Part shown: positions 3,792-18,744 of the stretch, piece by piece | Layout: every line of letters begins with the position of its first letter | Numbering within the stretch: the stretch's first letter is position 1 | NCBI GenBank assembly: GCA_030425145.1 | Contig: JAUHVK010000038.1 | Coordinates: 1 to 35,573, forward strand | Length of the DNA stretch: 35,573 bases | Source of the DNA: Alphaproteobacteria bacterium | Lineage (GTDB): Bacteria > Pseudomonadota > Alphaproteobacteria > Rhodobacterales > Rhodobacteraceae | Reading direction: 5' to 3' | Notes under the pieces: generated by a model | What the model was told of the DNA's origin: nothing | The model's input: the letters and a program-made list of their open reading frames with translations, nothing else | Database searches by the model: none | Made by a program: the position numbers and the translations under genes

Positions 3792-4208
3792 TCAAGCGGC
3801 CTCTTTGACCGGGAGGGCGATATCCCTCAGCGTGGATTGATTCAGCTCCTCCAGAAAACGGGTCTCGGCCGTGCGCAGCCGCGACTTGAGGCGGCAACAG
3901 CCGTTTATCGTACAATCACCACCGCTGGCCTCGAAACACTCAACCAGCGCCTGACCCTGTTCGAGCAACCGCATTACCTCGCCCAACCGCACGTCAACGA
4001 GATCCTTGCTGAGCACGGCCCCTCCCCCTCCGCCGCGCCGGGTTTTGACGACCCCACCGCGGACCAGTTGCTGCATGATCTTGGTCAGATGGTTGCGGGA
4101 CAGACTGAATTCCTCGGCCAGTTCAGCGGTCGAGAACGCCCGCTCTGGCGCGCTGGCCATGCGCATCAGCATGCGCAGGCCATAATCGGTGAAGGATGTA
4201 AGGCGCAT
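3792..4208 (-). CDS. NsrR-like Rrf2-family regulator, copy 2
   Basis: A 138-residue Rrf2 protein. It has an N-terminal winged helix (MRLTSFTDYGLRMLMRMA, then LAEEFSLSRNHLTKIMQQLVRGG) and Cys residues at 91, 99, 104 and 105 in the ECF...GGDCTINGCCRLK segment, the iron-sulfur ligand region of NsrR. NsrR family members sense nitric oxide through a [4Fe-4S] or [2Fe-2S] cluster and repress detoxification genes. An ungapped comparison with the copy at 13631-14047 gives about 23 differences in 138 positions. Nothing divergent of NO function remains beside it; the adjacent genes are TauE/GntR. It may still cross-regulate the intact locus. Confidence 0.87.
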   Translation of the reverse strand: MRLTSFTDYGLRMLMRMASAPERAFSTAELAEEFSLSRNHLTKIMQQLVRGGVVKTRRGGGGGAVLSKDLVDVRLGEVMRLLEQGQALVECFEASGGDCTINGCCRLKSRLRTAETRFLEELNQSTLRDIALPVKEAA

Positions 4209-4230
4209 GAGACCTCGATGTGGCTTGGAT

Positions 4231-4265
4231 TGGCATCTACAATACCTATTAACAGATGCAAATCG
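4231..4265. promoter_or_regulatory. Putative NsrR-type operator upstream of copy-2 regulator
   Basis: The stretch TACAATACCTATTAACAGATG (split here: TACAATACCTATT then AACAGATG; 4238-4258) is the same, base for base, as the one upstream of the other NsrR-like gene at 14075-14095. At this copy the left arm has drifted, so the perfect AATAGGTATT inverted repeat seen at 14065-14087 is not intact; instead GCATCT (4233-4238) and AGATGC (4254-4259) form an outer inverted repeat. Conservation beyond the coding region supports a functional operator. Confidence 0.5.
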
Positions 4266-7493: not shown

Positions 7494-8630
7494 TTGCGAA
7501 TCTTCTGGCCGACAAACATGCGATCCGTCCTGAATCACTTAAGTGCCTTCGCTCCGGCGCTCCCCGTACCCGCACGCAACGAGATTTTGCGGGCCTCAGC
7601 GGGCATCATCATCGGCTGCGGGTTGTGTACTATCATCGTTGATTTACTACCCGAACTTTTCGGTACTCCAATGATGTTGATTGCGCCTATCGGCGCATCT
7701 GCCGTGCTGATATTTGCAGTGCCCAATGCTCCGCTGGCTCAGCCCTGGTCCGCCATCACAGGAAATGTTGTTTCGGCGGTCGTTGCCATACTTGTGTTGA
7801 AAACAGTGCCAGACATTGCCGCTCCAGCCATTGCGGTTGGGGGTGCGACACTTGCAATGTTGCTGACCCGCTCGCTGCACCCTCCCGGGGGCGCGGTTGC
7901 CCTGCTCACAACACTCGAACATGAGACTGTTCTGGAAATCGGATTTTGGTTTGCGCTGATTCCAGTAGGCGTGTTGACGGCAGCGCTGGTCATCGGCGGC
8001 ATATTCTTTAACCGGCTTACCGGCAGGCACTATCCTTTCCGACACTCGGCAACGGCAGAAAATATGCAGGTTCCGGAATCAAGGCTTGGCCTCTCAAACG
8101 ACGAGATTTCCGATTTGCTGCGGCGGTTTAATCAGGCGCCAAACATTGGTGCCGTGGACCTTGGTCGTTTGCTTGAATCGGCGGAGCGCGAGGCTGCAAC
8201 TCACCGGTTTGATGGGGTCACCTGCGCAGAAATCATGACTGAAGACCTGATTTTCGTTGCTCCGGAAACTTCCATTGCTGGCGTTGCGCAAAAATTCCGT
8301 AGATGCGCGATAAAAAGCCTACCGGTTCTCGGTGGATCAGGAAAACTCCTGGGTGTGATCCTGCAATTCGACGTTATCGATGGGCTGATGAATTCCCGGC
8401 TTGCGCTTCGTCGCCACAGTCATAAGTGCCTGACGGCCTTAGACATCATGCGCCCGGCGGGCAATACGGTTCCGCCCGATATGCCGGTCGGGCACCTGCT
8501 CAACAGACTGGCAGTTCAAGGCGTCGAATTTGTGCCCGTTACAGAAGGTGACAGATTGGTCGGAATCATTACAAGGTCAGACATTGTGAACCTGCTGCTT
8601 GCAGGGTCCCGGCAACGCCAGGCGGCTTAA
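7494..8630 (+). CDS. HPP-family membrane protein with C-terminal CBS pair
   Basis: A 378-residue protein. Residues about 30-185 hold four or five membrane segments of the HPP family, including the family-naming motif in LTRSLHPPGGAVALLTTLEHE and the earlier MLIAPIGASAVLIFAVPNAPLAQPWSAITGN. Residues about 240-375 are two CBS domains (CAEIMTEDLIFVAPETSIAGVAQKF; DIMRPAGNTVPPDMPVGHLLNRLAVQG), which usually bind adenine nucleotides and gate transport. HPP proteins of cyanobacteria and chloroplasts have been linked to nitrite transport. Start is uncertain: TTG 7494 has a weak AGG upstream; ATG 7518 has none. It sits just after the nnrS/MOSC relic, which fits a nitrogen-oxide role. Confidence 0.85.
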   Translation: MRIFWPTNMRSVLNHLSAFAPALPVPARNEILRASAGIIIGCGLCTIIVDLLPELFGTPMMLIAPIGASAVLIFAVPNAPLAQPWSAITGNVVSAVVAILVLKTVPDIAAPAIAVGGATLAMLLTRSLHPPGGAVALLTTLEHETVLEIGFWFALIPVGVLTAALVIGGIFFNRLTGRHYPFRHSATAENMQVPESRLGLSNDEISDLLRRFNQAPNIGAVDLGRLLESAEREAATHRFDGVTCAEIMTEDLIFVAPETSIAGVAQKFRRCAIKSLPVLGGSGKLLGVILQFDVIDGLMNSRLALRRHSHKCLTALDIMRPAGNTVPPDMPVGHLLNRLAVQGVEFVPVTEGDRLVGIITRSDIVNLLLAGSRQRQAA

Positions 8631-8827: not shown

Positions 8828-9061
8828 TTACGGCTTGTTTTGCCAATAACCATTGGCGGCGGCGACCGTTGCGAAATGCGTCGCGACGACTTGGCTCGCG
8901 GCGATCAGGGCGTTGGAGTCTTGAGCATATTCGGGTCGCAGCCGGTCGCGGACATCCGCGTCGGGCTGGGTCAGCTTCACGGCCACGCGCGCGAGCTTGA
9001 CAGCGAGGTCATAACCTTCTTCCGGTGTGTCAGTCTTCAGCGTCGGGAGCCAGCTTGCCAT
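8828..9061 (-). CDS. Small hypothetical protein at the end of the cbb3 operon (77 aa)
   Basis: The start is ATG 9061, preceded by AGGAAAAG. The reading overlaps the 3' end of ccoS by 32 bases in another frame, so translation is probably coupled. The product (MASWLPTLKTDTPEEGYDLAVKLARVAVKL..., ending ...ANGYWQNKP) is soluble, helical and has no cysteines or membrane segment. I do not recognise the family. It is the last gene of the minus-strand operon that starts at the NsrR-like gene. The 197 bases between it and the HPP gene show nothing assignable. Confidence 0.55.
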   Translation of the reverse strand: MASWLPTLKTDTPEEGYDLAVKLARVAVKLTQPDADVRDRLRPEYAQDSNALIAASQVVATHFATVAAANGYWQNKP

Positions 9062-9221
9062 AATCTTTTCCTTCCGGATTCGGTTGGGTTTCAGGTGGGA
9101 TAATGCGCCATGCGGCGCCATCGGGGTCGTCGAACTGGTCGTTGCGAACCGCCCAGAAAAACGCCGCAAGCCCGACGAGGCCCATCCCTATTGACAGGGG
9201 GACGAGCACCAGGAGGCTCAT
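9030..9221 (-). CDS. ccoS: CcoS, cbb3-type cytochrome oxidase assembly protein
   Basis: A 63-residue protein with one N-terminal membrane segment (LVLVPLSIGMGLVGLAAFFWAVR) followed by the highly conserved CcoS signature NDQFDDPDGAAWRII and a short charged tail. CcoS is needed to complete the high-spin haem/copper centre of cbb3 oxidases. Its start (9221) overlaps the end of the DUF2189-type gene by 4 bases. The usual partners ccoG, ccoH and the copper ATPase ccoI are not beside it, so this operon must borrow them from elsewhere in the genome. Confidence 0.93.
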   Translation of the reverse strand: MSLLVLVPLSIGMGLVGLAAFFWAVRNDQFDDPDGAAWRIIPPETQPNPEGKDYGKLAPDAED

Positions 9222-10015
9222 GCATCATCTCCGGCGATCGCCCGGAAAGCGTACCAAGTACCATGGCCGAGAACGGGGAAAATGACGATCAGTCCGATCA
9301 GTCCGGTCAGGGCCGAGAGGGCCAGCCCGGCGATGACGATGACACCCCATGCCAGCATCGGTCGCAGGTTTTGCACCGTCATGGCAAAGCTGAGCCCCAT
9401 CGCGGTCAGCGCGTCGGTTTTCCGGGACACGAGCATCGGCACGGAAAAGACGCTGATCGCAAAGGCGAAGGCTGCGAACAGCCCGCCCACCAGCGTGCCT
9501 GTCGCGATCAGCGCCCATCCCCGCAGCGTTGTGAACGCATCGGCCAGCGCATCCACGGCTCCGGGAAATGGTTTCAGGCCGAAGAAAAGCGCGTAGAGAA
9601 GATCCGCCGCCCTCAGCCAGAACAGGATCAGAAGGCCGAGCAGCAGCCCGGCATAGGCCAGTTGTGCGCCCGATGCCGGGCGGAAAGAGATCATCTCCAA
9701 CAATGCCGTCTTCTTTCCGACTGCTCGGCGGCGGCTCTTTTCGTAGAGCCCGATAGCCAGGAACGGACCGATGATGAGAAAACCCGAAACCGCCGGCAGC
9801 GCCAAATAGAGAAGCCCGCTGGCGTAAAGCGTCCAAAGCACGCCGTAGGAAAACACGATCAGGAACAAGCCGTAGGCGAGGCTCGGCCCCGGGTCCGCCC
9901 GCAGGTCGCGCCAGCCGGCGGCCAGCCAGCCTGTGGCGGCCCGCGCCGGCAGATGGCGGGCGTAGGGCGATGCCGGCCGGTCCGGCTTTCGGGTCGCGGG
10001 TAGGGGTTCCAGCAT
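9218..10015 (-). CDS. DUF2189-type inner-membrane protein in the cbb3 operon
   Basis: A 265-residue membrane protein with about six hydrophobic segments. ATG 10015 is preferred because GAGGAG lies upstream; the open frame to 10237 would overlap ccoP. The pattern FLIIGPFLAIGLYEKSRRR and VFPVLGHGTWYAFRAI resembles the DUF2189 family of integral membrane proteins, for which I know no assigned function. It lies between a 52-residue membrane ORF and ccoS. DUF2189 genes are seen near respiratory and NO-related genes in alphaproteobacteria, so a role in oxidase assembly or NO tolerance is an inference. Confidence 0.8.
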   Translation of the reverse strand: MLEPLPATRKPDRPASPYARHLPARAATGWLAAGWRDLRADPGPSLAYGLFLIVFSYGVLWTLYASGLLYLALPAVSGFLIIGPFLAIGLYEKSRRRAVGKKTALLEMISFRPASGAQLAYAGLLLGLLILFWLRAADLLYALFFGLKPFPGAVDALADAFTTLRGWALIATGTLVGGLFAAFAFAISVFSVPMLVSRKTDALTAMGLSFAMTVQNLRPMLAWGVIVIAGLALSALTGLIGLIVIFPVLGHGTWYAFRAIAGDDA

Positions 10016-10029
10016 GGCCGCTCTCCTCT

Positions 10030-10188
10030 TCAGCAGGCGTGTTTGGCCGGTGTGGCGTTGGCCACCGCCATGCAGTCGGACTGCGAGCGCAACGCCACCG
10101 CAAGCATATGCGCATTGGCGGCGACAATTATCGTCGTCGCCATGATCGCCGCGGAAATGGCCAGGGTTCTCTGGGCTCGGGCGGTCAT
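10030..10188 (-). CDS. Small membrane protein after ccoP (52 aa)
   Basis: ATG 10188 overlaps the ccoP stop codon (ATGA), with GGAGGCGG just upstream inside ccoP; the stop is TGA at 10030-10032. The 52-residue product has a basic N-terminus (MTARAQRTLAISAAIMATT), one hydrophobic stretch of about 20 residues, and two C-terminal cysteines (SDCMAV and the final KHAC). This makes a single-span or exported peptide with a possible Cys pair on the periplasmic side. Similar small ORFs occur after ccoP in some operons but I recognise no named family. Confidence 0.6.
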   Translation of the reverse strand: MTARAQRTLAISAAIMATTIIVAANAHMLAVALRSQSDCMAVANATPAKHAC

Positions 10189-11102
10189 TGCGCCGCCTCC
10201 GCGCCCCTCTGACCCAAGGCCACCACATAAAGCGCAAGCAGGTTGATTTCCGCGTCCGACAGGCGGCCGGTCCAGGCGGGCATCACGCCATGACGACCAA
10301 GTTTCAGGGTTTCCATGACCGTCCCCTCATCCTGCCCGTAGATGACCGATCCGTCGGTCAGCGACGGCGCGCCGATCCCCTCAAGGCCACCCGCGCCGCC
10401 ATCGCCGTGACAGGAGGCGCAGTTTTCGGCAAAGAGCGTCGCGCCGGAACTGTCGACATCGGCACGTCCCGACGGCAATTCCGAGACATATTGCGCCAGC
10501 GCGGTGCGGTCGGCGCGTTCCATCCAGTCGAAGGCCGGCATCTCGGCAATGCGCGTGTCCGGGTGGTCGGCATTGATCCCGACGTGGAGCGTTTCAGCGA
10601 TGGCCGCAGGATCGCCGCCCCACAGCCAGTGATCATCGGCAAGCACCGGATAGCCCGGCCCGCCCTGCCCCGCGTCGCCGTGGCAGGCCGCGCAATTGTC
10701 GGAAAAGAGCCGCTCGGCCGCGGGCAGCGCCCGTGCCATCAGATCGGCATCGGATTGCAGCGCCGCGAAATCACCGTCACCGAAGCGCGAAAGCCAGTCC
10801 TGCCGGCCGGCCGACAGTTCCTGGAACCCTTCGAGCGCCTGCTGACCCTGATCCAGCCCCAGCAGCCCGCGCGTGTAGTCCCGCCCCAGCGGCCAGGCGG
10901 GCAACAGGATCCAGGCGATCACCGAATAAGTGACGGCCAGGATCAGCGCCCAGATGACGATCTTGGGAAAGGCCGTGTTCAGCTCGGTGATCCCGCCCCA
11001 GTCGTGACCTGTGGTCTCATAGCCGGTGACCGGGTCGACCTTGCGGTTGCCGGTATGCGGGTCGGCGCCGGGCAGCTGCCTCGGATCAGTCGGATTACTC
11101 AT
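10185..11102 (-). CDS. ccoP: CcoP, cbb3-type cytochrome c oxidase subunit III (dihaem)
   Basis: A 305-residue dihaem cytochrome c anchored by a membrane helix at about residues 45-70. The N-terminal cytoplasmic part carries the CcoP signature (VDPVTGYETTGHDWGGITELN). Two c-type haem sites are visible: CAACH at 137-141 and CASCH at 228-232, each followed by a later Met ligand region (AEMPAFDWM; GVMPAWTGRL). CcoP passes electrons from cytochrome c to CcoO/CcoN. Its start overlaps the end of ccoQ by 8 bases. Confidence 0.96.
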   Translation of the reverse strand: MSNPTDPRQLPGADPHTGNRKVDPVTGYETTGHDWGGITELNTAFPKIVIWALILAVTYSVIAWILLPAWPLGRDYTRGLLGLDQGQQALEGFQELSAGRQDWLSRFGDGDFAALQSDADLMARALPAAERLFSDNCAACHGDAGQGGPGYPVLADDHWLWGGDPAAIAETLHVGINADHPDTRIAEMPAFDWMERADRTALAQYVSELPSGRADVDSSGATLFAENCASCHGDGGAGGLEGIGAPSLTDGSVIYGQDEGTVMETLKLGRHGVMPAWTGRLSDAEINLLALYVVALGQRGAEAAQ

Positions 11103-11256
11103 CGCCGTCCTGCTTCTCTAGAATGGACCGGGCCGCGGCGTCATACGCGCCGCGGCGCGACGGGTTATAGGCCCAGATCACCACGATGACGAAAAACCCC
11201 ATCAGCCAGATCAGGCCGACCGTCTTGGACAGGTAGACAAGCAGATCGTGGGTCAT
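11095..11256 (-). CDS. ccoQ: CcoQ, small cbb3 oxidase subunit (53 aa)
   Basis: The reading from ATG 11256 to TAA 11095-11097 gives 53 residues with a single membrane helix (VGLIWLMGFFVIVVIWAYN) followed by PSRRGAYDAAARSILEKQD. This matches the CcoQ pattern, a one-helix protein with a WAY(x)P(x)R boundary and a short charged cytoplasmic tail. CcoQ stabilises the assembled oxidase. It overlaps the end of ccoO by 4 bases (ATGA) and ccoP by 8, so the three are translationally coupled. Confidence 0.92.
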   Translation of the reverse strand: MTHDLLVYLSKTVGLIWLMGFFVIVVIWAYNPSRRGAYDAAARSILEKQDGDE

Positions 11257-11981
11257 TGGCCGCCCTCCGCCAGAACCTCGTAGGGCGTATCGGTCAGCGT
11301 TCCGAGTGACTGGAGATAGGCCACTACCGCATCCAGTTCAGAAAGCATCGACGTATCGCCGTCGAAGTCGCGTATCGCGACCCCCTCGCCGTAGCGCTCG
11401 ATGACGCCCTCGGCGCCATCACTGTCCGGATTGCTCTGGGCCTGCGCATCGGCGCTGGCGGCCTGGATCATCGCCTCGTCATAGGGCACGCCCAGACGGG
11501 CCAGCGTCGCGAGCGAATCGCGCAACAGCCCGGTATCGAGCGGCCGGTCCAGCCACGGATAGGCCGGCATGATCGAGGCCGGCACCACGCTGCGCGGATC
11601 GATCAGGTGCTGCACGTGCCAGTCGTCTGAATATTTTCCCCCCAGCCGCGCCAGGTCGGGGCCGGTGCGCTTGGAGCCCCAGAGCATCGGATGGTTGTAG
11701 GCACTCTCGGAGGCCAGCGAATAGGGCCCGTAGCGGTCCAACTCGTCGGCGAGGCTGCGTACCATCTGGCTGTGGCAGGCATAGCAGCCCTCGCGGATAT
11801 AGATCTCGCGGCCTGCCAGCTCCAGCGGCGTGTGCGGCCGCAGGTCGTCGGGAAGTTCGACCGTCTCGTCGATGGTGAAGAGCGGCGCGATCTCCACGAT
11901 CCCGCCGATCGAGGCCGCGAAGATGATCGCCGCGACCAGCCCCATCGAGACCTTTTCCAGATTGTAATGCAGCTTGAGCAT
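11253..11981 (-). CDS. ccoO: CcoO, cbb3-type cytochrome c oxidase subunit II (monohaem)
   Basis: A 242-residue monohaem cytochrome c. One N-terminal membrane helix (about residues 10-33) is followed by the haem-binding CYACH at 66-70 within EGCYACHSQMVRSLADELDRYGPYS, a segment typical of CcoO, and by SIMPAYPWL with the axial methionine. The length fits the family. The start is ATG 11981; ccoN ends only 4 bases upstream. It would relay electrons from CcoP to the CcoN catalytic centre. Confidence 0.96.
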   Translation of the reverse strand: MLKLHYNLEKVSMGLVAAIIFAASIGGIVEIAPLFTIDETVELPDDLRPHTPLELAGREIYIREGCYACHSQMVRSLADELDRYGPYSLASESAYNHPMLWGSKRTGPDLARLGGKYSDDWHVQHLIDPRSVVPASIMPAYPWLDRPLDTGLLRDSLATLARLGVPYDEAMIQAASADAQAQSNPDSDGAEGVIERYGEGVAIRDFDGDTSMLSELDAVVAYLQSLGTLTDTPYEVLAEGGQ

Positions 11982-11985
11982 GGGG

Positions 11986-13611
11986 TCACTCCGCCGGTTG
12001 CGGGGCGAGCGGCCGATCCGTGACCTCCCCCCCGGTCGTGCGCATTGTGGCGCGGCAGTTCCAGACGCAGATCACCGTGCCCGCCAGGAACATCGCGCCG
12101 CCGATGGTGCGCAGCAGGTAATAGGGCGCCATCGCCTCGACCGATTGCACGAAACTGTAGGAAAGCGCGCCGTTCTCGTCATAGGCCCGCCACATCAGCC
12201 CCTGGGTGATGCCCGCGTTCCACATCGACACGACGTAGACCAGCGTGCCGCCGACGGCGAGCCAAAAATGCCACTCAACCGCGCGCGGCGAGGCCATCGC
12301 CTCGCGCCCCGAAAGCTGCGGCACCAGCGTGTAGATAGCGCCGAAGACGATCATCGCCACCCAGCCCAGCGTGCCGGAATGAACATGCCCGACCGTCCAG
12401 TCGGTATAGTGGCTCAGCGAGTTGACCGGCCGGATGGCCAGGAACGAGCCCTCGAAGGTCGACAGCCCGTAGAACACCGCCGCCACGAACATGAAGCGCA
12501 GCGTGGCGTCGTCGCGCACCTTGTGCCAGGCCCCGTTCAGCGTGGCGATGGCATTGCCCGCCGAGGCCCAGGAAGGCACCAGCAAGATGACCGAGAAGGT
12601 CATGCCCAGCGTCTGCGCCCAATAGGGCAGCGCTGTGTAATGCAGGTGGTGGGAGCCGACCCAGATATAGAAGAAAACGATACCCCAAAAGCTGACGATG
12701 GAGAGGCGATAGGACCAGATCGGCCGACCCGACCGCACCGGCAGGAAATAGTAGAGCATGCCCAGGAACCCGGAGGTCAGAAAGAAGGCCACCGCGTTGT
12801 GGCCGTACCACCATTGCACCATGGCATCCTGAACCCCCGACCAGACCGGAAAGCTTTCAGCGGTGGTCCACCGGACCGGCAATGCCAGGTTGTTGACGAT
12901 ATGCAGCATCGCCACCACTAGGATGAAGGCCAGATAATACCAGTTGGCGACATATATATGTGGCTCGGCCCGACGGGCGAGCGTTCGGATATAGAGTGCG
13001 AAATAGGTCACCCAGACCACGACCAGCCACAGATCGGCATACCACTCGGCCTCGGCATATTCCTTGGACTGCGTGCTGCCCATCATGTAGCCGGTGACGG
13101 CCCAGAGGCAGAAGAGATTGAAACCCAGAAGTACGAACCACGGGCTGATATTGTCGGCCAGTCGCGCCCGTGAGGTGCGTTGCAGGACATGGAAAGACGT
13201 GGCGATCAGCGCGTTGCCGCCGAACCCGAAGATGATACCGGTCGTATGCACCGGGCGCAGCCGGCCAAAGCTGGTCCAGGGCCAGGGCGGCGTCGCCTCG
13301 GGCAAATAGAGCAGCCCCGCGACCCAGACACCGACTCCCATGCCGATCATCGCCCAGACCAGCGTCATCACGATCCCGAAGCGCGTCGGCGCATCATAGT
13401 AGCGGCTCGACCGGTCCTGCTGTGGTTCGGGGTCGAAAAGCGCACCGCCAAGAACAAAGACCAGCCCGAACCCAAGCGCCAGCGCCATGAAACCGTGCGC
13501 CGCCATCACGCCATGTCGAGCGGAGGCGGCCATCACGAAACCAAGCAGAGCCAGCAGGACCGCCAACCAAAACCCAATCTTGCGCTCAGAGATGCTCAAT
13601 GTTTGCGTCAA
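11986..13611 (-). CDS. ccoN: CcoN, cbb3-type cytochrome c oxidase catalytic subunit (divergent)
   Basis: A 541-residue, 12- to 14-span haem-copper oxidase subunit. Family landmarks are present: RPVHTTGIIFGFGGNALIATSFHVLQRT (haem ligand His), VQWWYGHNAVAFFLTSGFLGMLYYFLP (CuB His and cross-linking Tyr), SHHLHYTALPYWAQTLGM (CuB His pair), STFEGSF (proton-channel Glu) and HYTDWTVGHVHSGTLGWVAM (haem ligands). Several usually conserved positions differ from canonical CcoN as I recall it: RLSIVSFW instead of RLSIVHFW, and LVPSWASAGNAI instead of MPSWGGMINGL. This points to a secondary, divergent cbb3 type. Proteins of this family reduce O2 with high affinity and some reduce NO. It starts 19 bases after the NsrR-like gene. 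Confidence 0.95.
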   Translation of the reverse strand: MTQTLSISERKIGFWLAVLLALLGFVMAASARHGVMAAHGFMALALGFGLVFVLGGALFDPEPQQDRSSRYYDAPTRFGIVMTLVWAMIGMGVGVWVAGLLYLPEATPPWPWTSFGRLRPVHTTGIIFGFGGNALIATSFHVLQRTSRARLADNISPWFVLLGFNLFCLWAVTGYMMGSTQSKEYAEAEWYADLWLVVVWVTYFALYIRTLARRAEPHIYVANWYYLAFILVVAMLHIVNNLALPVRWTTAESFPVWSGVQDAMVQWWYGHNAVAFFLTSGFLGMLYYFLPVRSGRPIWSYRLSIVSFWGIVFFYIWVGSHHLHYTALPYWAQTLGMTFSVILLVPSWASAGNAIATLNGAWHKVRDDATLRFMFVAAVFYGLSTFEGSFLAIRPVNSLSHYTDWTVGHVHSGTLGWVAMIVFGAIYTLVPQLSGREAMASPRAVEWHFWLAVGGTLVYVVSMWNAGITQGLMWRAYDENGALSYSFVQSVEAMAPYYLLRTIGGAMFLAGTVICVWNCRATMRTTGGEVTDRPLAPQPAE

Positions 13612-13630
13612 TATTCTTTGCCTCGCCCAA

Positions 13631-14047
13631 TCATGCCGCTGACTGAACCGGAAGTGCGATATCCGCGAGTGTAGACCGGTTCAGATCTTCCAGAAAACGT
13701 GTCTCGGCCTGTCGCAACCGCGACCTGAGGCGGCAGCAGCCGTCTATCGTGCAATCACCGCCGTCCACATCGAAACACTCCACCAACGCCTGACCTTGCT
13801 CAAGCAACCGCACGACCTCTCCGAGCCGCACCTCGGCAGGATTGTTGCAGAGCATTGCTCCGCCCCCTCCGCCACGCCGGGTTTCGACGATCCCTCCGCG
13901 AACCAATTGCTGCATGATCTTTGTCAGATGGTTGCGGGACAGCCCGAATTCCTCGGCGAGTTCGGCGGTTGAAAAGGCGCTTTCAGGCGCGCTGGCCATA
14001 CGCATCAGCATGCGCAGGCCATAATCGGTGAAGGATGTCAGACGCAT
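13631..14047 (-). CDS. nsrR: NsrR-like Rrf2-family NO-sensing regulator, copy 1
   Basis: A 138-residue Rrf2 protein with an N-terminal winged helix (MRLTSFTDYGLRMLMRMA; LAEEFGLSRNHLTKIMQQLVRGGIVETRRGG) and Cys 91, 99, 104 and 105 in ECF...GGDCTIDGCCRLR, matching the NsrR cluster-ligand region. An extra Cys at 67 is absent from the other copy. NsrR loses DNA binding when NO nitrosylates its iron-sulfur cluster. It is the first gene of the minus-strand ccoNOQP operon and faces the NO-detoxification operon across an 84-base promoter gap, the position of a shared local regulator. RirA or IscR identity is less likely given the neighbours. Confidence 0.87.
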   Translation of the reverse strand: MRLTSFTDYGLRMLMRMASAPESAFSTAELAEEFGLSRNHLTKIMQQLVRGGIVETRRGGGGGAMLCNNPAEVRLGEVVRLLEQGQALVECFDVDGGDCTIDGCCRLRSRLRQAETRFLEDLNRSTLADIALPVQSAA

Positions 14048-14064
14048 GGGACCTCAACAGTTTG

Positions 14065-14087
14065 AATAGGTATTTACAATACCTATT
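14065..14087. promoter_or_regulatory. Perfect inverted repeat in the nsrR/globin promoter
   Basis: AATAGGTATT (14065-14074) and AATACCTATT (14078-14087) are exact reverse complements separated by TAC. They lie in the middle of the 84-base gap between the divergent starts at 14047 and 14132. A second, weaker symmetry, AGATGTAAATCT, follows at 14091-14102. Length and dyad fit an Rrf2-family operator (about 23 bases, two 10-11 base arms). Part of the site is kept at the other NsrR-like gene (4238-4258). The sequence is not the enterobacterial NsrR consensus, so binding by NsrR is an inference. Confidence 0.65.
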
Positions 14088-14131
14088 AACAGATGTAAAT
14101 CTGAAATCAAGCCTTAGCCATAGGTACACCC

Positions 14132-14581
14132 ATGTCATCCCATGACCCCAAAATCGTTTCTGCTCGCCCGGAGTTGACAGCCGCCCTCACGGCGCGGACC
14201 GGACTGGACGATGATATCCTGACCGACCTCGTACATTCCTTCTATGCCAGGGTGCGCGCCGACGAGCTGCTTGGCCCGATCTTCGAGGCAAAGGTTTCCG
14301 ATTGGACGGCGCATCTGGAACGGATGGTCGACTTCTGGTCGTCCGTGGCGCTGATGACGGGGCGCTATCACGGCGCTCCTGTACTGGCCCACACCCCGTT
14401 GCCGATCAGTACGACGCATTTCAACCGCTGGCTCGCGATCTTCCGCGAGGCCGCGCAGCAGGTCTGCACGCCCGCTGGTGCCGCACATGTGATCGAGCGC
14501 GCCGAACGTATCGCGCGTTCCCTGAACATGGCCGTCGCACAGGCGAGGTCTGCTCAGGACGCTGTACCACTTCTTCGCTAA
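14132..14581 (+). CDS. Group III truncated haemoglobin
   Basis: A 149-residue globin. The truncated group III pattern is clear: DLVHSFYARVRADELLGPIF for the A-B region, MVDFWSSVALMTGRYHGAPVLAHTPLPI, then THFNRWLAIF with the proximal haem histidine at about residue 96. Group III globins bind O2 and NO; several are tied to NO protection. It is the first gene of the plus-strand operon, with the inverted repeat 45 to 67 bases upstream. The start ATG 14132 has only a weak AGG before it. No flavin reductase domain is attached, so an electron donor must come from elsewhere. Confidence 0.9.
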   Translation: MSSHDPKIVSARPELTAALTARTGLDDDILTDLVHSFYARVRADELLGPIFEAKVSDWTAHLERMVDFWSSVALMTGRYHGAPVLAHTPLPISTTHFNRWLAIFREAAQQVCTPAGAAHVIERAERIARSLNMAVAQARSAQDAVPLLR

Positions 14582-14596
14582 TGAAAGGATGGCCCG

Positions 14597-15085
14597 ATGA
14601 CCGACACTGTCTCCACCCGAGACCCCACCGCACTGACCCGATACATCGAAACCCGCTATCACGCGCGCCACCGCGAGCAACTGCCGCTGCTGGCCAATCT
14701 GGCCGAGAAGGTCGAGACCGCGCATTTCGGCGACGAAGGCGTGCCCGAGGGGCTTTGCACCCTATTGGAGCGCATGATCGGCGAGATGGAAGTGCATATG
14801 AAGAAAGAGGAGCTGATGCTCTTTCCGGCCATCCGCAAGGGCGGTACGCCCGCGGTGCAAGACCCGATCACGGCGCTGCGCGCTGACCACGACGATCATA
14901 ACCGGGACATCGCCGAAATTCGCCGGCTGACCGATGAACTCACGCTCCCCGAGGGCGCCTGCGACATCTGGGCCGAGCTTTATGACGGGCTGGCCGAGTT
15001 CATCAGCGATCTCGACGCGCATATCAGGCTGGAAAACGAGGTGCTGTTTCCGCAATTCGAATCCCGGAGCATGGACCATGTCTGA
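14597..15085 (+). CDS. RIC/YtfE-type hemerythrin-like di-iron protein
   Basis: A 162-residue four-helix protein. It starts with TRYIETRYHARHREQLPLLANLAEKVETAH, then HMKKEELMLFP, LRADHDDHNRDI and FISDLDAHIRLENEVLFPQFE. The His and Glu positions in these four helices are those of the di-iron centre of the RIC family (YtfE, ScdA, DnrN, NorA), which repairs iron-sulfur clusters damaged by NO or handles NO directly. The N-terminal ScdA (DUF542) segment of full-length RIC proteins is absent. It lies 15 bases after the globin with GAAAGGA before ATG 14597, and overlaps the next gene by 8 bases. Confidence 0.9.
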   Translation: MTDTVSTRDPTALTRYIETRYHARHREQLPLLANLAEKVETAHFGDEGVPEGLCTLLERMIGEMEVHMKKEELMLFPAIRKGGTPAVQDPITALRADHDDHNRDIAEIRRLTDELTLPEGACDIWAELYDGLAEFISDLDAHIRLENEVLFPQFESRSMDHV

Positions 15086-15422
15086 TTTGCATTTCCCTAG
15101 GCCCACCAAAACTCTTGCGGATCGCCGCCACGCGCTGGCACCGGAAACCGAGGACGCCTTTCGCGCCTTTTCCAACGCGGTGTTTGCTGATGGCGCGCTG
15201 GACACCCGCACCAAACAGCTGATCGCCGCGGCGGTCGCGCATGTCACCCAATGTCCGTGGTGCATCGAGGGTCGTGTCAAGGCCGCGAAGCGCGCGGGCG
15301 CCACCGGCGAAGAGATCATGGAGGAGATCTGGGTCGCATCCGAGATGCGCGCGGGTGCAGCTTGGGCACACGCGCTGAAGGCCGTCGAGTTGCTGGACGA
15401 TCCCGAACCGGGCAGCGCCTGA
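15078..15422 (+). CDS. AhpD-like carboxymuconolactone decarboxylase-family protein
   Basis: A 114-residue protein starting at ATG 15078 inside the end of the hemerythrin gene. It has the AhpD-fold pattern AFSNAVFADGALDTRTKQLIAAAVAHVTQCPWCIEGRVKAAKRAGATGEEIMEEI, with the CXXC pair at C59 and C62. AhpD family members use this pair for peroxide or disulfide reduction; many small members have unknown substrates. Its place in the NO operon suggests a thiol redox task under nitrosative stress. The stop TGA shares a base with the next start (TGATG). Confidence 0.88.
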   Translation: MSDLHFPRPTKTLADRRHALAPETEDAFRAFSNAVFADGALDTRTKQLIAAAVAHVTQCPWCIEGRVKAAKRAGATGEEIMEEIWVASEMRAGAAWAHALKAVELLDDPEPGSA

Positions 15423-15823
15423 TGCCGCCGCGGCCTCCTGTCCCGGACGATCCGGCCGAACGCGTGCGCATCAAGCGGGCCTACCGCGCCGCGCGGGTAT
15501 CGGACGGCAGGCGGATACTGGTTGATCGGCTCTGGCCCCGCGGGGTGTCCAAGGATCGCGCCCGGCTTGACGGTTGGATAAAGGACATCGCGCCGAGCAA
15601 CGGCTTGCGCGAATGGTTTCACGACCATTCGGATCAGTGGGACGTGTTCCGATCCCGCTACGAGACGGAACTCACGGAAAGGGGTGATTTGCTGCGCGAG
15701 CTTGCCGGATATGCGCAGGACGGCATCGTGACACTTGTTTATGCGTCAAAGGACGAAGAGCATAACAACGCGATGGTACTTCGCGACCATCTGAGCAGGC
15801 GCATCTCGCGAAAGGAGATCTGA
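15422..15823 (+). CDS. DUF488-family protein
   Basis: A 133-residue soluble protein of the DUF488 (YeaO-like) family, recognised from RIKRAYRAARVSDGRRILVDRLWPRGVSKDRARLDGWIKDIAPSNGLREWF and the C-terminal VTLVYASKDEEHNNAMVLRDHL. The function of the family is not established. It starts at ATG 15422, overlapping the AhpD stop, and ends 1 base before the nitronate monooxygenase gene. Its tight placement in this operon implies a role in nitrosative or oxidative stress. Confidence 0.88.
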   Translation: MPPRPPVPDDPAERVRIKRAYRAARVSDGRRILVDRLWPRGVSKDRARLDGWIKDIAPSNGLREWFHDHSDQWDVFRSRYETELTERGDLLRELAGYAQDGIVTLVYASKDEEHNNAMVLRDHLSRRISRKEI

Positions 15824-15824
15824 A

Positions 15825-16844
15825 ATGAGCGGCCAACCGGATATTTCGCTGCGCACGCCCTTGTGCGATCTGCTGGGTTGCGACCTGCCGATCCTGCTGG
15901 CCGGGATGGGCGGTGTTTCCCGCTGGGAACTGGCGGCAGCGGTGGCGAATGCAGGTGGCTACGGCATGCTCGGGATGGTGCGCGAGGACCCGGACCTGAT
16001 TGCGCAAGAGGTCGCGGCGCTCAGGGCCGCGACGGACCGGCCCTTTGCCGTCAACCTGATCCCGGCGGCAACGGAACCGGCGCTGCTTGACGCCCAGATA
16101 GCGCGCTGTCTGGACCTTGGCGTGCCGGCCTTCACGTTCTTCTGGGATGTGATGCCCGAGGTTATTGCGCGCGTGAAACACGCCGGATGCCAGGTGCTGC
16201 ACCAGGTCGGCACGGTCAAAGCCGCGCGCATGGCTGAAGAGGCCGGGGCGGATGTGATCATAGCGCAGGGCGTCGAGGCCGGCGGGCATGTTCACGGGCG
16301 GCGTCCGGCTTTTGAATTGGCCGAGGCCATCCTGGCGCAGACGGCTCTGCCGGTCGCGGTGTCGGGTGGCATCACATCGGGTGGGGATCTGGCCCGCGCC
16401 CTGGCGATTTGCGCAGGTGGCGTGCACTGCGGAACCGCCTTTCTGGCGACCGAGGAATCCTTCGCCCATCCCTATCACAAGGCACGAGTTATCGAGGCAA
16501 CCGGGGACGACACCGTTCTGACCGATGTCTTCGTGCTGAACTGGCCAAAGGGTGCCGCCGTTCGTATCATAGCGAACAGCGTAACCAAGGCACTAAACGG
16601 TCACTATCTGGGCCATGATCCCGATGACTTGCCGCGCGAGGCGGTCGCCCGGGACGGTGAACAGGAGCGCCTGCGCTTCAGCACCGACTCGCCGCTCAGG
16701 ACCACGACCGGCGATCTCGAGGCGATGGCGCTTTTTGCAGGTCAGGGCGCAGGCACCATCACCCAGATCGTCCCCGCTGCCGAACGGGTTGCCGACATGA
16801 TGGCGCAAGCGCGATCTGCCATGACGCCAGAGACAACGCCATGA
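15825..16844 (+). CDS. Nitronate monooxygenase-family flavoprotein
   Basis: A 339-residue TIM-barrel FMN protein of the nitronate monooxygenase (2-nitropropane dioxygenase) family. Landmarks: LLGCDLPILLAGMGGVSRWELAAAVANAGGYGMLG at the N-terminus, QVLHQVGTVKAARMAEEAGADVIIAQGVEAGGHVHGRR near residue 140 with the family's His, and LPVAVSGGITSGGDLARALAICAGGVHCGTAFLATEES for phosphate binding. It would oxidise toxic nitronates or a related substrate. GAAAGGAGATC precedes ATG, and the stop overlaps the next start (ATGA). Enoyl-ACP reductase FabK is a related fold but less likely in this context. Confidence 0.9.
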   Translation: MSGQPDISLRTPLCDLLGCDLPILLAGMGGVSRWELAAAVANAGGYGMLGMVREDPDLIAQEVAALRAATDRPFAVNLIPAATEPALLDAQIARCLDLGVPAFTFFWDVMPEVIARVKHAGCQVLHQVGTVKAARMAEEAGADVIIAQGVEAGGHVHGRRPAFELAEAILAQTALPVAVSGGITSGGDLARALAICAGGVHCGTAFLATEESFAHPYHKARVIEATGDDTVLTDVFVLNWPKGAAVRIIANSVTKALNGHYLGHDPDDLPREAVARDGEQERLRFSTDSPLRTTTGDLEAMALFAGQGAGTITQIVPAAERVADMMAQARSAMTPETTP

Positions 16845-17548
16845 GCGAGAAATTTGAGAAATTTCGCTGCACGGGTGGATTTTCGTCTCCCCCCTGCTAC
16901 GCATCCGAGATTGCACCGGATTATTTCGATCCGCTGGCCGTCGATGCCGATCAGGCCCGCGACGTCGCGCGCTGGCGCAAGGCTGAAAGAAGCCGCCTGC
17001 GCAACGAGAGACAGGAACTGACGGTGGCGGACCGGCAGCGCGTGAGCGACGCTCTGATCTCTCATCTGCGGCGGCTCTTGCAGGATCGTTTCGGCGGCGC
17101 ACACGGTGGTGTGTTTTCCGCCTACTGGCCGATCAAGGGCGAGCCCGATTTGCGTCCGCTGATGGCCGAACTGCACGGCGCCGGTGTCACCATTGCCCTG
17201 CCGCTGGTCGAAACCAAGGCCGCACCGCTTGCCTTCCGGCACTGGACGCCGGAAACTCGGATGGTCCGGGGCGACTGGAACATTCCTGTGCCACCCCCCG
17301 GCGCGCCTGAACTGACGCCGGACATCACGCTTGCGCCTCTCGTCGGCTGGACCAGCGACGGCTACCGGCTTGGGTATGGCGGGGGCTATTTCGACCGGAC
17401 GCTGGCGGCGCTCAGGCCACGACCGTTCACGATTGGCATCGGTTTTGACACGGCCCAACTCAAGACGATCTATTCGCAACCTCATGATATCGCGCTCGAC
17501 GTCATCCTGACCGAAACCGGCGACCAGACAGGACGGAACACCGCATGA
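16841..17548 (+). CDS. 5-formyltetrahydrofolate cyclo-ligase with Cys-containing N-terminal extension
   Basis: A 235-residue protein. From about residue 45 on it is a 5-formyl-THF cyclo-ligase: RWRKAERSRLRNERQELTVADRQRVSDAL, GVFSAYWPIKGEPDLRPLM, and the nucleotide loop GWTSDGYRLGYGGGYFDRTLAAL. The enzyme converts 5-formyl-THF to methenyl-THF with ATP. The first 45 residues (SEKFEKFRCTGGFSSPPCYASEIAPDYFDPLAVD) are extra compared with standard enzymes of about 190 residues and contain two Cys. It overlaps the genes on both sides by 4 bases. Why a folate enzyme sits in an NO operon is unclear. Confidence 0.9.
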   Translation: MSEKFEKFRCTGGFSSPPCYASEIAPDYFDPLAVDADQARDVARWRKAERSRLRNERQELTVADRQRVSDALISHLRRLLQDRFGGAHGGVFSAYWPIKGEPDLRPLMAELHGAGVTIALPLVETKAAPLAFRHWTPETRMVRGDWNIPVPPPGAPELTPDITLAPLVGWTSDGYRLGYGGGYFDRTLAALRPRPFTIGIGFDTAQLKTIYSQPHDIALDVILTETGDQTGRNTA

Positions 17549-18744
17549 CAAGTACCGCCGAGCAGATGCGATCCTGGAGCGGACCGGCGATCCTGAGCTA
17601 CGGGTTCCGACCGTTTTTCCTGGGCGGTGCTCTTTGGGCTGCTATGGCGATGGTGCTTTGGATTCTCACGCTGTCGGGTGTGCTTGATTTGCCGACAAGG
17701 TTCGATCCGGTCGCCTGGCATGCACATGAGTTCCTATTCGGATACGTCGTTGCCGTCATTGCCGGCTTCCTGCTTACGGCCGTTCCAAACTGGACAGGGC
17801 AACTGCCCGTCGTGGGCTGGCCGCTCGGCGGACTGTTCACTCTTTGGGTCGCCGGACGTTTCGCCATCATTGCCTCGACAATCCTGCCGCCACTTGCGGT
17901 GGCACTTGCGGATCTTGCAATGCCCGTCGTGCTGTTGGCATTTCTTCTACGCGAGATCATCAGAGGCCGGAACTGGCAAAACCTGATCGTTTTGACGATG
18001 TTTGGCTTCTTTATTCTTGGAAACGCGGTGTTTCACTGGGAAGCTGCGCAGATTGGCCGTGCCGCGCAGGGAAATGGTTTACGGATCGGCCTTGGTGCGA
18101 CAATCATGCTGATCGCCATGATCGGGGGACGCATCGTGCCCTCATTCACGCGAAACTGGCTGGTAAGGCAACGACCGGGCCGGTTGCCCGTGCCGCCGAT
18201 GCAGCGTTTCGACAAGTTTGCACTCCTGGCGCTGCTGATCGCCCTGGCCACGTGGGCCGCAGCGCCGATGGCAAGCATGGCCGCGATCCTGTTGCTTGCT
18301 GCCGGACTGTTGCACGTGCTTCGGCTGACGAGGTGGGCGGGCGACCGCACATCGGCAGAGCCGCTCCTTTGGGTGTTGCATGTCGGCTACGCCTTTCTCC
18401 CGCTTGGCGCTCTGACGATAGCGGCCGCCATTCTCGTACCCGGGTTGATCAGCGGTACTTCCGCACAACACCTTTGGATGGCCGGTGCGATCGGGCTGAT
18501 GACCATGGCTGTCATGACACGCGCCACCCTGGGGCACTCCGGTCGGACCCTTACCGCCGGAACAAGTACGCTGGTCCTCTATTTGTCCCTGCTGGCCGCT
18601 GTCGCCACCCGCATCGCAGCTGGGGTCTGGGAAGAGCACGCATCTGCTCTGCACATGCTATCGGGTCTGACGTGGATCGTAGCATTTGGCGGCTTTGCGC
18701 TAATCTACGGCCCATATCTCTTGCATCCGGGCAAACGGGGGTGA
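17545..18744 (+). CDS. nnrS: NnrS family haem-copper membrane protein
   Basis: A 399-residue inner-membrane protein with about twelve hydrophobic segments. NnrS hallmarks: GPAILSYGFRPFFLGGALWAA at residues 13-33, WHAHEFLFGYVVAVIAGFLLTAVPNWTG, GGRIVPSFTRNWL and HLWMAGAIGLMTMAVMTRATLGHSGR, with conserved His residues for haem or copper. NnrS protects cells from NO-induced metal-complex damage and is under NO-responsive control in denitrifiers. It is the last gene of the plus-strand operon, its start overlapping the cyclo-ligase by 4 bases. A broken second copy of its first codons is at 7164-7230. Confidence 0.95.
   Translation: MTSTAEQMRSWSGPAILSYGFRPFFLGGALWAAMAMVLWILTLSGVLDLPTRFDPVAWHAHEFLFGYVVAVIAGFLLTAVPNWTGQLPVVGWPLGGLFTLWVAGRFAIIASTILPPLAVALADLAMPVVLLAFLLREIIRGRNWQNLIVLTMFGFFILGNAVFHWEAAQIGRAAQGNGLRIGLGATIMLIAMIGGRIVPSFTRNWLVRQRPGRLPVPPMQRFDKFALLALLIALATWAAAPMASMAAILLLAAGLLHVLRLTRWAGDRTSAEPLLWVLHVGYAFLPLGALTIAAAILVPGLISGTSAQHLWMAGAIGLMTMAVMTRATLGHSGRTLTAGTSTLVLYLSLLAAVATRIAAGVWEEHASALHMLSGLTWIVAFGGFALIYGPYLLHPGKRG

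Follow-up and report, generated by a model that had tools for sequence, protein, structure and literature searches.

Oxidases of the cbb3 type are textbook targets of FNR, Anr and FixK, and NO both inhibits these enzymes and reacts with FNR-type regulators. One question then is why, in a marine bacterium of the Rhodobacteraceae, the gene of an NsrR-type regulator should head a cbb3 operon. The window, by which we mean the whole 35,573-nucleotide stretch of DNA analysed here, suggests an answer from its sequence: the operon appears to encode a spare high-affinity oxidase that is induced by NO rather than by low oxygen.

The cco operon and its divergent neighbours

The operon lies on the minus strand, and its first gene, nsrR1 (13631..14047; Rrf2 family, PF02082, 2.4e-32), is separated by 19 bp (13612-13630) from ccoN (11986..13611; TTG start), which encodes the catalytic subunit, of the type that we call S-type, and scores 600 bits with TIGR00780 (cut-off 583). 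There follow ccoO for the mono-haem subunit (11253..11981; one CxxCH, TIGR00781, over cut-off), ccoQ (11095..11256; PF05545 (FixQ), 2e-15, passing the Pfam cut-off), ccoP for the di-haem subunit (10185..11102; two CxxCH, TIGR00782, 234 bits, over cut-off), a 52-residue ORF (10030..10188), a gene for a DUF2189 membrane protein (9218..10015 from the ATG at 10015, scanned as 9218-10033; PF09955, 7.5e-35, passing the Pfam cut-off) and that for the assembly protein CcoS (9030..9221; TIGR00847, 2.7e-19, over the NCBIfam equivalog cut-off). With CcoN above its cut-off and CcoO, CcoQ and CcoP in one operon, the enzyme belongs to the cbb3 class. The first-pass annotation had described an NsrR-like gene 19 bases upstream of ccoN on the same strand and the remaining genes in this order, as the coordinates bear out; the overlaps that it gave throughout are found at four junctions (4-8 bp, at ccoO/ccoQ, ccoQ/ccoP, ccoP/52-residue ORF and DUF2189/ccoS), while ccoN and ccoO are separated by 4 bp and the small ORF and the DUF2189 gene by 14 bp, given the start at 10015. 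The run is also longer than had been described, being prolonged beyond 9030 by a gene for a hexameric tyrosine-coordinated haem protein (HTHP, 8828..9061, minus strand, scanned as 8828-9058; PF11534, 1.2e-38; 77 residues from the ATG), which occupies the same position in Thioclava and Roseibium plasmids (L219, L220). Between 13500 and 14300 neither a terminator-like site nor a sigma-70-like promoter was found.

The 52-residue ORF matches no family in NCBIfam or Pfam and is conserved across S-type operons; its product has one apparent membrane helix, as judged by eye, and two cysteines near the C terminus. An ORF of this type with the motif occurs in 59 of 79 loci having ccoP and DUF2189, some of the 20 misses nevertheless giving tblastn matches, and all 59 products end in cysteine.

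As previously noted, ccoGHI is absent beside the operon. The accompanying proposal, that of a secondary oxidase borrowing assembly factors from a primary one, is supported by a second cbb3 locus in the genome, which is of the ordinary type and encodes CcoG (541 bits) and, in the ccoI position, a Cu-type P-ATPase (CcoI-like), followed by a CcoS-like ORF; no NCBIfam model reached E<=1e-8 with the ORF that stands in the place of ccoH.

Divergently, on the plus strand, lie genes for a globin (14132..14581; PF01152, 1.1e-07), whose orthologue is annotated as a group III truncated haemoglobin, a YtfE/RIC-like hemerythrin of Fe-S repair (14597..15085; PF01814; YtfE 164 bits, below the 254-bit cut-off), an AhpD/carboxymuconolactone decarboxylase-like protein (15081..15422; PF02627), a DUF488 protein (15422..15823; PF22752/PF04343), a member of the nitronate monooxygenase family (15825..16844; PF03060), a 5-formyltetrahydrofolate cyclo-ligase-like protein (16841..17548; PF01812) and an NnrS family membrane protein (17545..18744; PF05940, 1e-109), NnrS having a role in NO resistance.

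Operator and regulator

The 84-bp gap between the divergent operons (14048-14131) contains a perfect 23-bp palindrome, AATAGGTATTGTAAATACCTATT, with the spacing of NsrR sites, lying within a 25-bp scored site (14064..14088, minus strand) of 46 bits. A weaker site of 32 bits (4227..4251, minus strand) lies 5' of nsrR2 (3792..4208, minus strand), a paralogue 83% identical to nsrR1; a candidate NsrR-type operator of 7-N5-7 form is present in the regulator's own and its putative target promoters. In both spacing and sequence the palindrome resembles the consensus gATGyAT-N5-ATrCATc, as found in the available text of PMC1274295. The 4.9-Mb genome has a single exact copy of the palindrome's core, GGTATTNNNAATACC, and five more positions that match it with one mismatch, a distribution on which we reject a wide NsrR regulon. 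The scoring matrix, trained on 13 sites of relatives from the same-family locus set, was one-sided for the first scan, including the window sites, and symmetrised for the comparison of 45 with 40 loci described below; with the former the best site in ten 100-kb first-order random sequences reached 10.9 bits, and with the latter, for which the threshold was 20, one random 5-kb sequence in 40 contained a site of 13.0 bits. Among the 15 relatives' loci inspected the operator lies upstream of nsrR in 14, the fifteenth (L094) being without nsrR, and where the operon order differs it is found upstream of the globin gene (L085, L105, L107-L110).

The best-scoring NCBIfam equivalog for nsrR1 is NsrR, and since its 111.6 bits do not reach the cut-off of 182 we call the protein NsrR-type rather than NsrR proper. 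Its best PDB relative is the NsrR structure 5n07, with which three cysteines and Asp8 align, residues that we take to be the ligands of an Fe-S cluster and that are kept in 39/39 NsrR proteins of at least 55% identity. The two paralogues pair in the NsrR tree (support 100/85), of which only this pairing is used, the tree (80 rows, 135 columns) being poorly resolved and its bootstrap not settled.

The genome's ordinary cbb3 locus carries an exact FNR box at -108 and another with two mismatches at -140, whereas nothing nearer than four mismatches to an FNR box is found in the window's gap. Taken with the operator, the divergent NO genes and the Asp8 and cysteine pattern, this supports the earlier suggestion that control is probably of the NO type instead of the FNR type. 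On sequence grounds NsrR-type control is well supported, and auxiliary status and the location of assembly genes elsewhere are supported too.

A separate branch of CcoN

In a quick tree that carried long-branch warnings, the CcoN of the window falls in a discrete alphaproteobacterial branch, the S-type, separated from ordinary CcoN by one split (SH-aLRT 100); the S rows of greatest divergence, L115-L118, do not group with the remaining 78 but fall to the ordinary side when the tree is midpoint-rooted. The labels were set by motif (GSHH/EGS for S-type, GPHH/EGP for ordinary), and their agreement with the tree came later. The signature changes, P256S and P325S (P. stutzeri numbering, via alignment to 3mk7), respectively adjoin the CuB histidine pair and follow the proton glutamate, and 14 more columns are fixed in the branch. 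Six histidines, Tyr251 on its own helix and Glu323, respectively the haem and CuB ligands, the cross-link tyrosine and the proton glutamate, are kept in 82/82 S-type and 62/62 ordinary rows; the window subunit scores as CcoN and keeps the CuB and Tyr ligands, and is not a catalytic subunit of the NorB type.

For comparison we assembled 45 S-type and 41 ordinary cbb3 loci. Eighty of these, 39 of them S-type, are the best 80 among the matches listed in a scan of genome contigs, so that the proportions of the two types are not frequencies; the other six are plasmid loci hand-picked to cover lineages, all S-type (6/6). An exact 600-base test showed 7 of the 39 S-type contig loci to be identical to loci of the same-family set, and the two sets are therefore not independent. 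Among the best matches listed plus the six plasmids, DUF2189 flanks 44/45 S-type and 0/41 ordinary loci, an Rrf2/NsrR gene lies nearby in 34/45 versus 0/41, and any of NsrR, globin, RIC or NnrS in 36/45 versus 0/41. In this same sample an operator of at least 20 bits within 6 kb upstream is present at 25/45 S-type versus 0/40 ordinary loci (1 of the 41 left out), and an FNR box within 900 bp at 2/45 versus 37/39 (2 of the 41, having less than 900 bp upstream, left out), one control element being exchanged for the other. The gene order that the first-pass annotation had proposed to look for in other genomes recurs, nsrR preceding ccoN in 14 of 36 S-type loci of the same family and, in 23 of the 45, ccoN having a same-strand Rrf2 gene that starts no more than 620 bp upstream; on this recurrence we reject chance adjacency. 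The S-type appears to be a distinct cbb3 branch, often plasmid-borne and usually found beside NO-defence genes.

Against NO control we count the NsrR equivalog score below its cut-off, the missing sigma-70-like promoter, the 9 of 45 S-type loci that lack all four NO markers within 10 kb, and the absence of a 20-bit operator from 20/45 S-type loci and, within the same family, of an operator from 10/36. At L148 nsrR adjoins ccoN, yet the best operator site scores only 10.7 bits.

Function of the operon and related systems

We give a probability of roughly 60% to the reading that the nsrR-cco operon encodes an NO-inducible auxiliary cbb3 oxidase, whose main job would be O2 respiration under NO and for which NO reduction may be a side activity. 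An NsrR-type Fe-S repressor would sit on the palindrome between the divergent units and hold both down; destruction of its cluster by NO would then release it from the DNA, such that the second cbb3 oxidase would be made together with proteins of NO removal and repair. The S-type oxidase would most likely sustain high-affinity respiration when the ordinary oxidases are inhibited by NO, which also disables FNR, the regulator that the ordinary cbb3 would depend on.

That the enzyme is instead mainly an NO reductase, for detoxifying or respiring NO, and reduces O2 only secondarily, is in our view unlikely. In its favour, the operon is placed among NO genes, and the available text of PMC8780969 states that cbb3 enzymes can reduce NO, while that of PMC12816887 voices a similar idea for the cbb3 of SAR11, which lacks NOR. 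No NorB was detected in the host genome, whose COX1-family genes number only three (all six candidates scored, with a Pfam COX1 model that does detect a qNor), and a qNor query gave no match (two of seven candidates scored); nor was a full Hmp found, matches starting only from query residue 158. NirK is rejected for this genome, where the best match reached 73.5 of the 296 bits required. On the other side, the ligands of O2 chemistry and the proton glutamate are kept, and NorB-like genes (E below 1e-17, in 97 genomes, two weaker matches dropped) are commoner in S-type carriers (18/39) than in the family's other genomes (79/355), for which reasons the S-type oxidase is not simply standing in for an NO reductase; with this enrichment we reject a general replacement of NorB. 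The 39 carriers were chosen by score, with CcoN inspected in 35 (all except G103, G195, G251 and G320), and, as both the carrier search and the qNor-query search scored only the top candidates per genome, absences in them are not exhaustive.

Rrf2 regulators respond to diverse effectors, and nsrR1 scores almost as well with the RirA model as with that of NsrR (95 versus 112 bits), but a protein sensing iron, Fe-S status, superoxide or nitrite, with an indirect link to NO, seems improbable given the NsrR-like spacing and sequence of the operator, the Asp8 and cysteine pattern, and the RIC, NnrS and globin genes behind the same operator. Least probable by far is continued oxygen control through an unrecognised site or an internal promoter, with nsrR merely adjacent: the scans covered two sequence models, the FNR box and the NsrR-like operator, and the latter is missing at 20 bits from 20/45 S-type loci, yet the same scan gives FNR boxes in 37/39 ordinary and 2/45 S-type loci, and the operator recurs before S-type operons of different order.

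Beyond an NO-inducible auxiliary oxidase, we hold only tentatively, at somewhat under even odds, that the S-type cbb3 is a terminal oxidase specialised for respiration under NO, with a retuned active site, dedicated partners (DUF2189 and the two-cysteine small protein) and an NO sensor in place of an O2 sensor, spread across Alphaproteobacteria as a plasmid-borne NO-resistance module. Counted against the NO-inducible auxiliary oxidase is the strong inhibition of cbb3 enzymes by NO described in the available text of PMC6472365, where the ccoNOQPG genes of an ordinary-looking operon in Sphingopyxis are repressed by NO. In the accessible parts of the open-access literature searched we found neither a measured NO response for an operon of this type nor a paper connecting cbb3 operons with an NsrR operator or with DUF2189, and no open-access paper was found treating DUF2189 and cbb3 together. 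The apparent shift of a whole CcoN branch from control by an O2 sensor to control by an NO sensor suggests a way for bacteria to go on respiring where NO is abundant and O2 scarce, in denitrifying sediments, biofilms or nodules for example. The residues, partner proteins and promoter of this branch offer concrete handles on whether a haem-copper oxidase can evolve NO tolerance, and ccoN counted as a sign of ordinary microaerobic respiration would mix two differently controlled enzymes.

With ordinary FNR-controlled cbb3 systems (ccoNOQP-ccoGHIS), such as the FnrL-dependent fixNOQPGHIS of Dinoroseobacter shibae (PMC5398030, available text), the operon shares four subunits, metal ligands and CcoS. 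Unlike them, the S-type has a separate CcoN branch, an NsrR-type operator and DUF2189 and small-protein companions, and the window operon is without FNR box or adjacent ccoGHI. The Aox of Vibrio fischeri is not a haem-copper enzyme. It is reportedly NO-responsive, to go by the title of a 2010 paper by Dunn. Like the enzyme proposed here, Aox is a terminal oxidase within an NsrR regulon, according to the accessible portion of PMC1274295, but it belongs to a different operon. The operator spacing and the targets dnrN/ytfE and nnrS are likewise those of the beta- and gammaproteobacterial NsrR regulons in that source, whose main text contains neither 'cbb3' nor 'cytochrome oxidase' and reports R. 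capsulatus E1F1 as the sole alphaproteobacterial NsrR. Similarly, ccoN4 of P. aeruginosa is, in the text available of PMC10790758, a specialised cbb3 catalytic subunit induced by a respiratory poison with its regulator gene adjacent, but it is an orphan subunit, induced by cyanide rather than NO and dependent on MpaR, a GntR-family/PLP regulator. The SAR11 nirK-cbb3 region, compared by its description in part of PMC12816887, also ties a cbb3 oxidase to nitrogen-oxide genes, with bifunctionality proposed there, but unlike the window operon it has a crp-fnr regulator and a canonical ccoNOQPGHIS.

Gene order and regulator of the operon

An Rrf2-family gene followed by ccoN, ccoO, ccoQ, ccoP, a 52-residue ORF, a DUF2189 gene and ccoS, the order proposed in the first-pass annotation, is borne out, with the Rrf2-family gene (nsrR1, 13631-14047, minus strand) lying 19 bp ahead of ccoN (11986-13611, minus strand). 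The overlaps described for the junctions hold at four of them, by 4-8 bp, but not at ccoN/ccoO, where there is a 4-bp gap, or at ORF/DUF2189, where the gap is 14 bp if the ATG at 10015 is taken as the DUF2189 start. The operon also extends, as previously unreported, beyond ccoS to a terminal HTHP gene (8828-9061, 77 aa; PF11534, 1.2e-38), which overlaps the end of ccoS; HTHP likewise follows ccoS in plasmids of Thioclava nitratireducens and Roseibium aggregatum. A divergent plus-strand run starts 84 bp from nsrR1 and encodes a globin, a YtfE/RIC-like hemerythrin, an AhpD-like protein, DUF488, a nitronate monooxygenase family protein, a 5-FTHF cyclo-ligase-like protein and NnrS. Convergent with the operon is a gene (7494-8630) labelled HPP-like/CBS by reading the sequence, and stretches resembling it occur near operons with the same type of CcoN, here termed S-type (L088, L096, L100 and L146). 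HPP proteins are known as nitrite transporters.

For NsrR1 (138 aa) the top NCBIfam equivalog is NsrR at 111.6 bits, under the model cut-off of 182, with RirA at 95. Its closest solved relative is NsrR 5n07 (2.2e-20), presumably the Streptomyces protein, and the alignment preserves three Cys and Asp8, which we take to be the cluster ligands; this pattern is present in all 39 NsrR1 homologues from the fetched loci with an identity of 55% or more. The paralogue nsrR2 (3792-4208; 3792-4251 with its operator) is 83% identical to nsrR1, has a similar, weaker operator of 32 bits and adjoins genes read from the sequence as GntR-type and TauE-like, not NO genes. Since nsrR2 groups with nsrR1 in the NsrR tree, it probably arose by a duplication that took the promoter along.

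The S-type branch and its neighbourhood

Assigned by score, the CcoN type of the window occurs in 39 of 394 genomes of the family, with an identity to the window CcoN of 58-91% in relatives versus about 52-56% for ordinary CcoN, and in a quickly built tree of 144 CcoN sequences a single branch parts 82 S-type from 62 ordinary ones (SH-aLRT 100). All 82 S-type rows retain the six His ligands together with Tyr251 and Glu323 (P. stutzeri numbering, via the 3mk7 alignment). Sixteen alignment columns discriminate the two types at 95% or more on both sides. Among these, Pro256, directly preceding the CuB His pair, is replaced by Ser in 81/82 S-type rows and Pro325, two residues past Glu323, in 82/82, whereas ordinary rows have Pro at both positions (62/62). 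The ordinary CcoN of the window genome groups with that of Marivita geojedonensis (support 80), which probably places the organism in Marivita or close to it; S-type CcoN is found in only 3 of 17 genomes of this genus, and its presence is therefore patchy. It extends to plasmids, 102 of 580 matching records having their best place at 60% or more identity to the window CcoN, and the six of these that were read are all S-type. In each of eleven sphingomonad plasmid records (H18-H28) ccoN is 66.7% identical to that of the window; the sole one examined (H19; L221, 8001-14942) has an S-type ccoN beside qNor, hmpA, a globin and an Rrf2 gene.

The neighbourhoods of the two types differ sharply in 86 named loci, comprising the best 80 matches and six plasmid regions, and divided by motif into 45 S-type (GSHH/EGS) and 41 ordinary (GPHH/EGP). 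Within 10 kb, DUF2189 is found at 44/45 S-type loci, the exception being a 5-kb contig (L172), Rrf2/NsrR at 34/45, globin at 26/45, RIC at 13/45 and NnrS at 10/45, against 0/41 ordinary loci in every case. At least one of the four NO markers accompanies 36/45 S-type and 0/41 ordinary loci; none lies within 10 kb of L140, L152, L156, L166, L169, L171, L172, L174 and L222. In the last of these, from Sinorhizobium mexicanum, where NsrR, globin, RIC and NnrS were searched nearby with no match, a cytochrome P460 gene (6857-7453) is upstream of the S-type operon. An Rrf2 gene stands close upstream of ccoN in Rhizobiales loci also (L154, L159, L162, L163, L165, L173, L176). Genes of the DUF488 and nitronate monooxygenase families lie between globin and ccoS at several loci (L157, L158, L161, L164, L085, L105, L107-L109), a recurrence which suggests an unrecognised role with NO or nitro-compounds.

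The small protein between ccoP and DUF2189 (10030-10188) appears to span the membrane with a single helix, has a conserved NAHL motif and two Cys, and matches nothing in Pfam or NCBIfam. A small ORF bearing the motif is present in 59 of 79 loci with ccoP and DUF2189, with Cys at the end in 59/59, and has so far been seen solely in S-type cbb3 operons. At these loci DUF2189 is tied to S-type CcoN and not to the ordinary form, which suggests that DUF2189 and the small protein are dedicated subunits or assembly factors of the S-type oxidase.

Putative operator and FNR sites

The intergenic gap contains AATAGGTATTGTAAATACCTATT, a perfect 23-bp palindrome, whose core GGTATTNNNAATACC has one exact copy in the 4.9-Mb genome and one-mismatch copies at five more places. 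The site, TAGGTAT-TGTAA-ATACCTA, has the 7-N5-7 layout of the NsrR consensus gATGyAT-N5-ATrCATc, as given in PMC1274295, and differs from it among the upper-case bases in one symmetrical pair. The palindrome is immediately upstream of nsrR in 14 of 15 relatives' loci, the exception (L094) having no nsrR. In the alternative order globin-DUF488-NMO-ccoS-ccoNOQP-DUF2189 (L085, L105, L107-L109; L110 without NMO) the predicted site is upstream of globin. Sites of at least 20 bits occur in the fetched stretch of 26 of the relatives' 36 S-type loci, 13 of these sites being the training set of the matrix, and are lacking in 10; the best chance score in ten random 100-kb sequences was 10.9 bits. Among the named loci, such a site lies no more than 6 kb upstream in 25/45 S-type versus 0/40 ordinary loci, and no more than 1 kb upstream in 17/45 S-type loci. 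L148, in which nsrR adjoins ccoN yet the top site reaches just 10.7 bits, is a counter-example.

Conversely, an FNR box with no more than one mismatch lies within 900 bp in 2/45 S-type versus 37/39 ordinary loci. The same exchange is seen within the window genome: for its ordinary cbb3, an exact FNR box lies at -108 and a second, with two mismatches, at -140, whereas the best match in the window's intergenic gap has four mismatches.

Proposed role and known systems

When NO is absent, NsrR would hold both divergent units repressed; its displacement by NO would then allow the oxidase to be produced together with proteins for NO handling and Fe-S repair. According to PMC4771820, activators of the FNR type respond to NO, and NO should therefore also lower the FNR-driven synthesis of the ordinary cbb3, a loss for which the NsrR-driven copy would make up. 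Assembly of the S-type enzyme could use the CcoG and CcoI-like ATPase of the genome's other cbb3 locus; in three of the six plasmid S-type regions that were read (Sphingobium, Mesorhizobium, Sulfitobacter) the operon itself includes a P-type ATPase.

The window genome has three COX1-family genes, and since a search of it detected neither NorB nor a full Hmp, nor NirK above the cut-off, the cluster may be what chiefly protects it against NO. As a general replacement for NorB the S-type enzyme is rejected, because NorB-like matches are commoner in carriers (18/39) than in other genomes (79/355; Fisher p 0.003). It is reported that cbb3 enzymes can reduce NO (PMC8780969) and that NO strongly inhibits them (PMC6472365). 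The preferred reading is an O2 oxidase that serves cells under NO stress, with NO turnover possible.

The kind of system is already known, from the NsrR-controlled oxidase Aox (PMC1274295) and the cyanide-induced cbb3 subunit CcoN4 (PMC10790758). Searches of open-access literature turned up no cbb3 branch controlled by an NsrR-type regulator, and this variant appears to be new.
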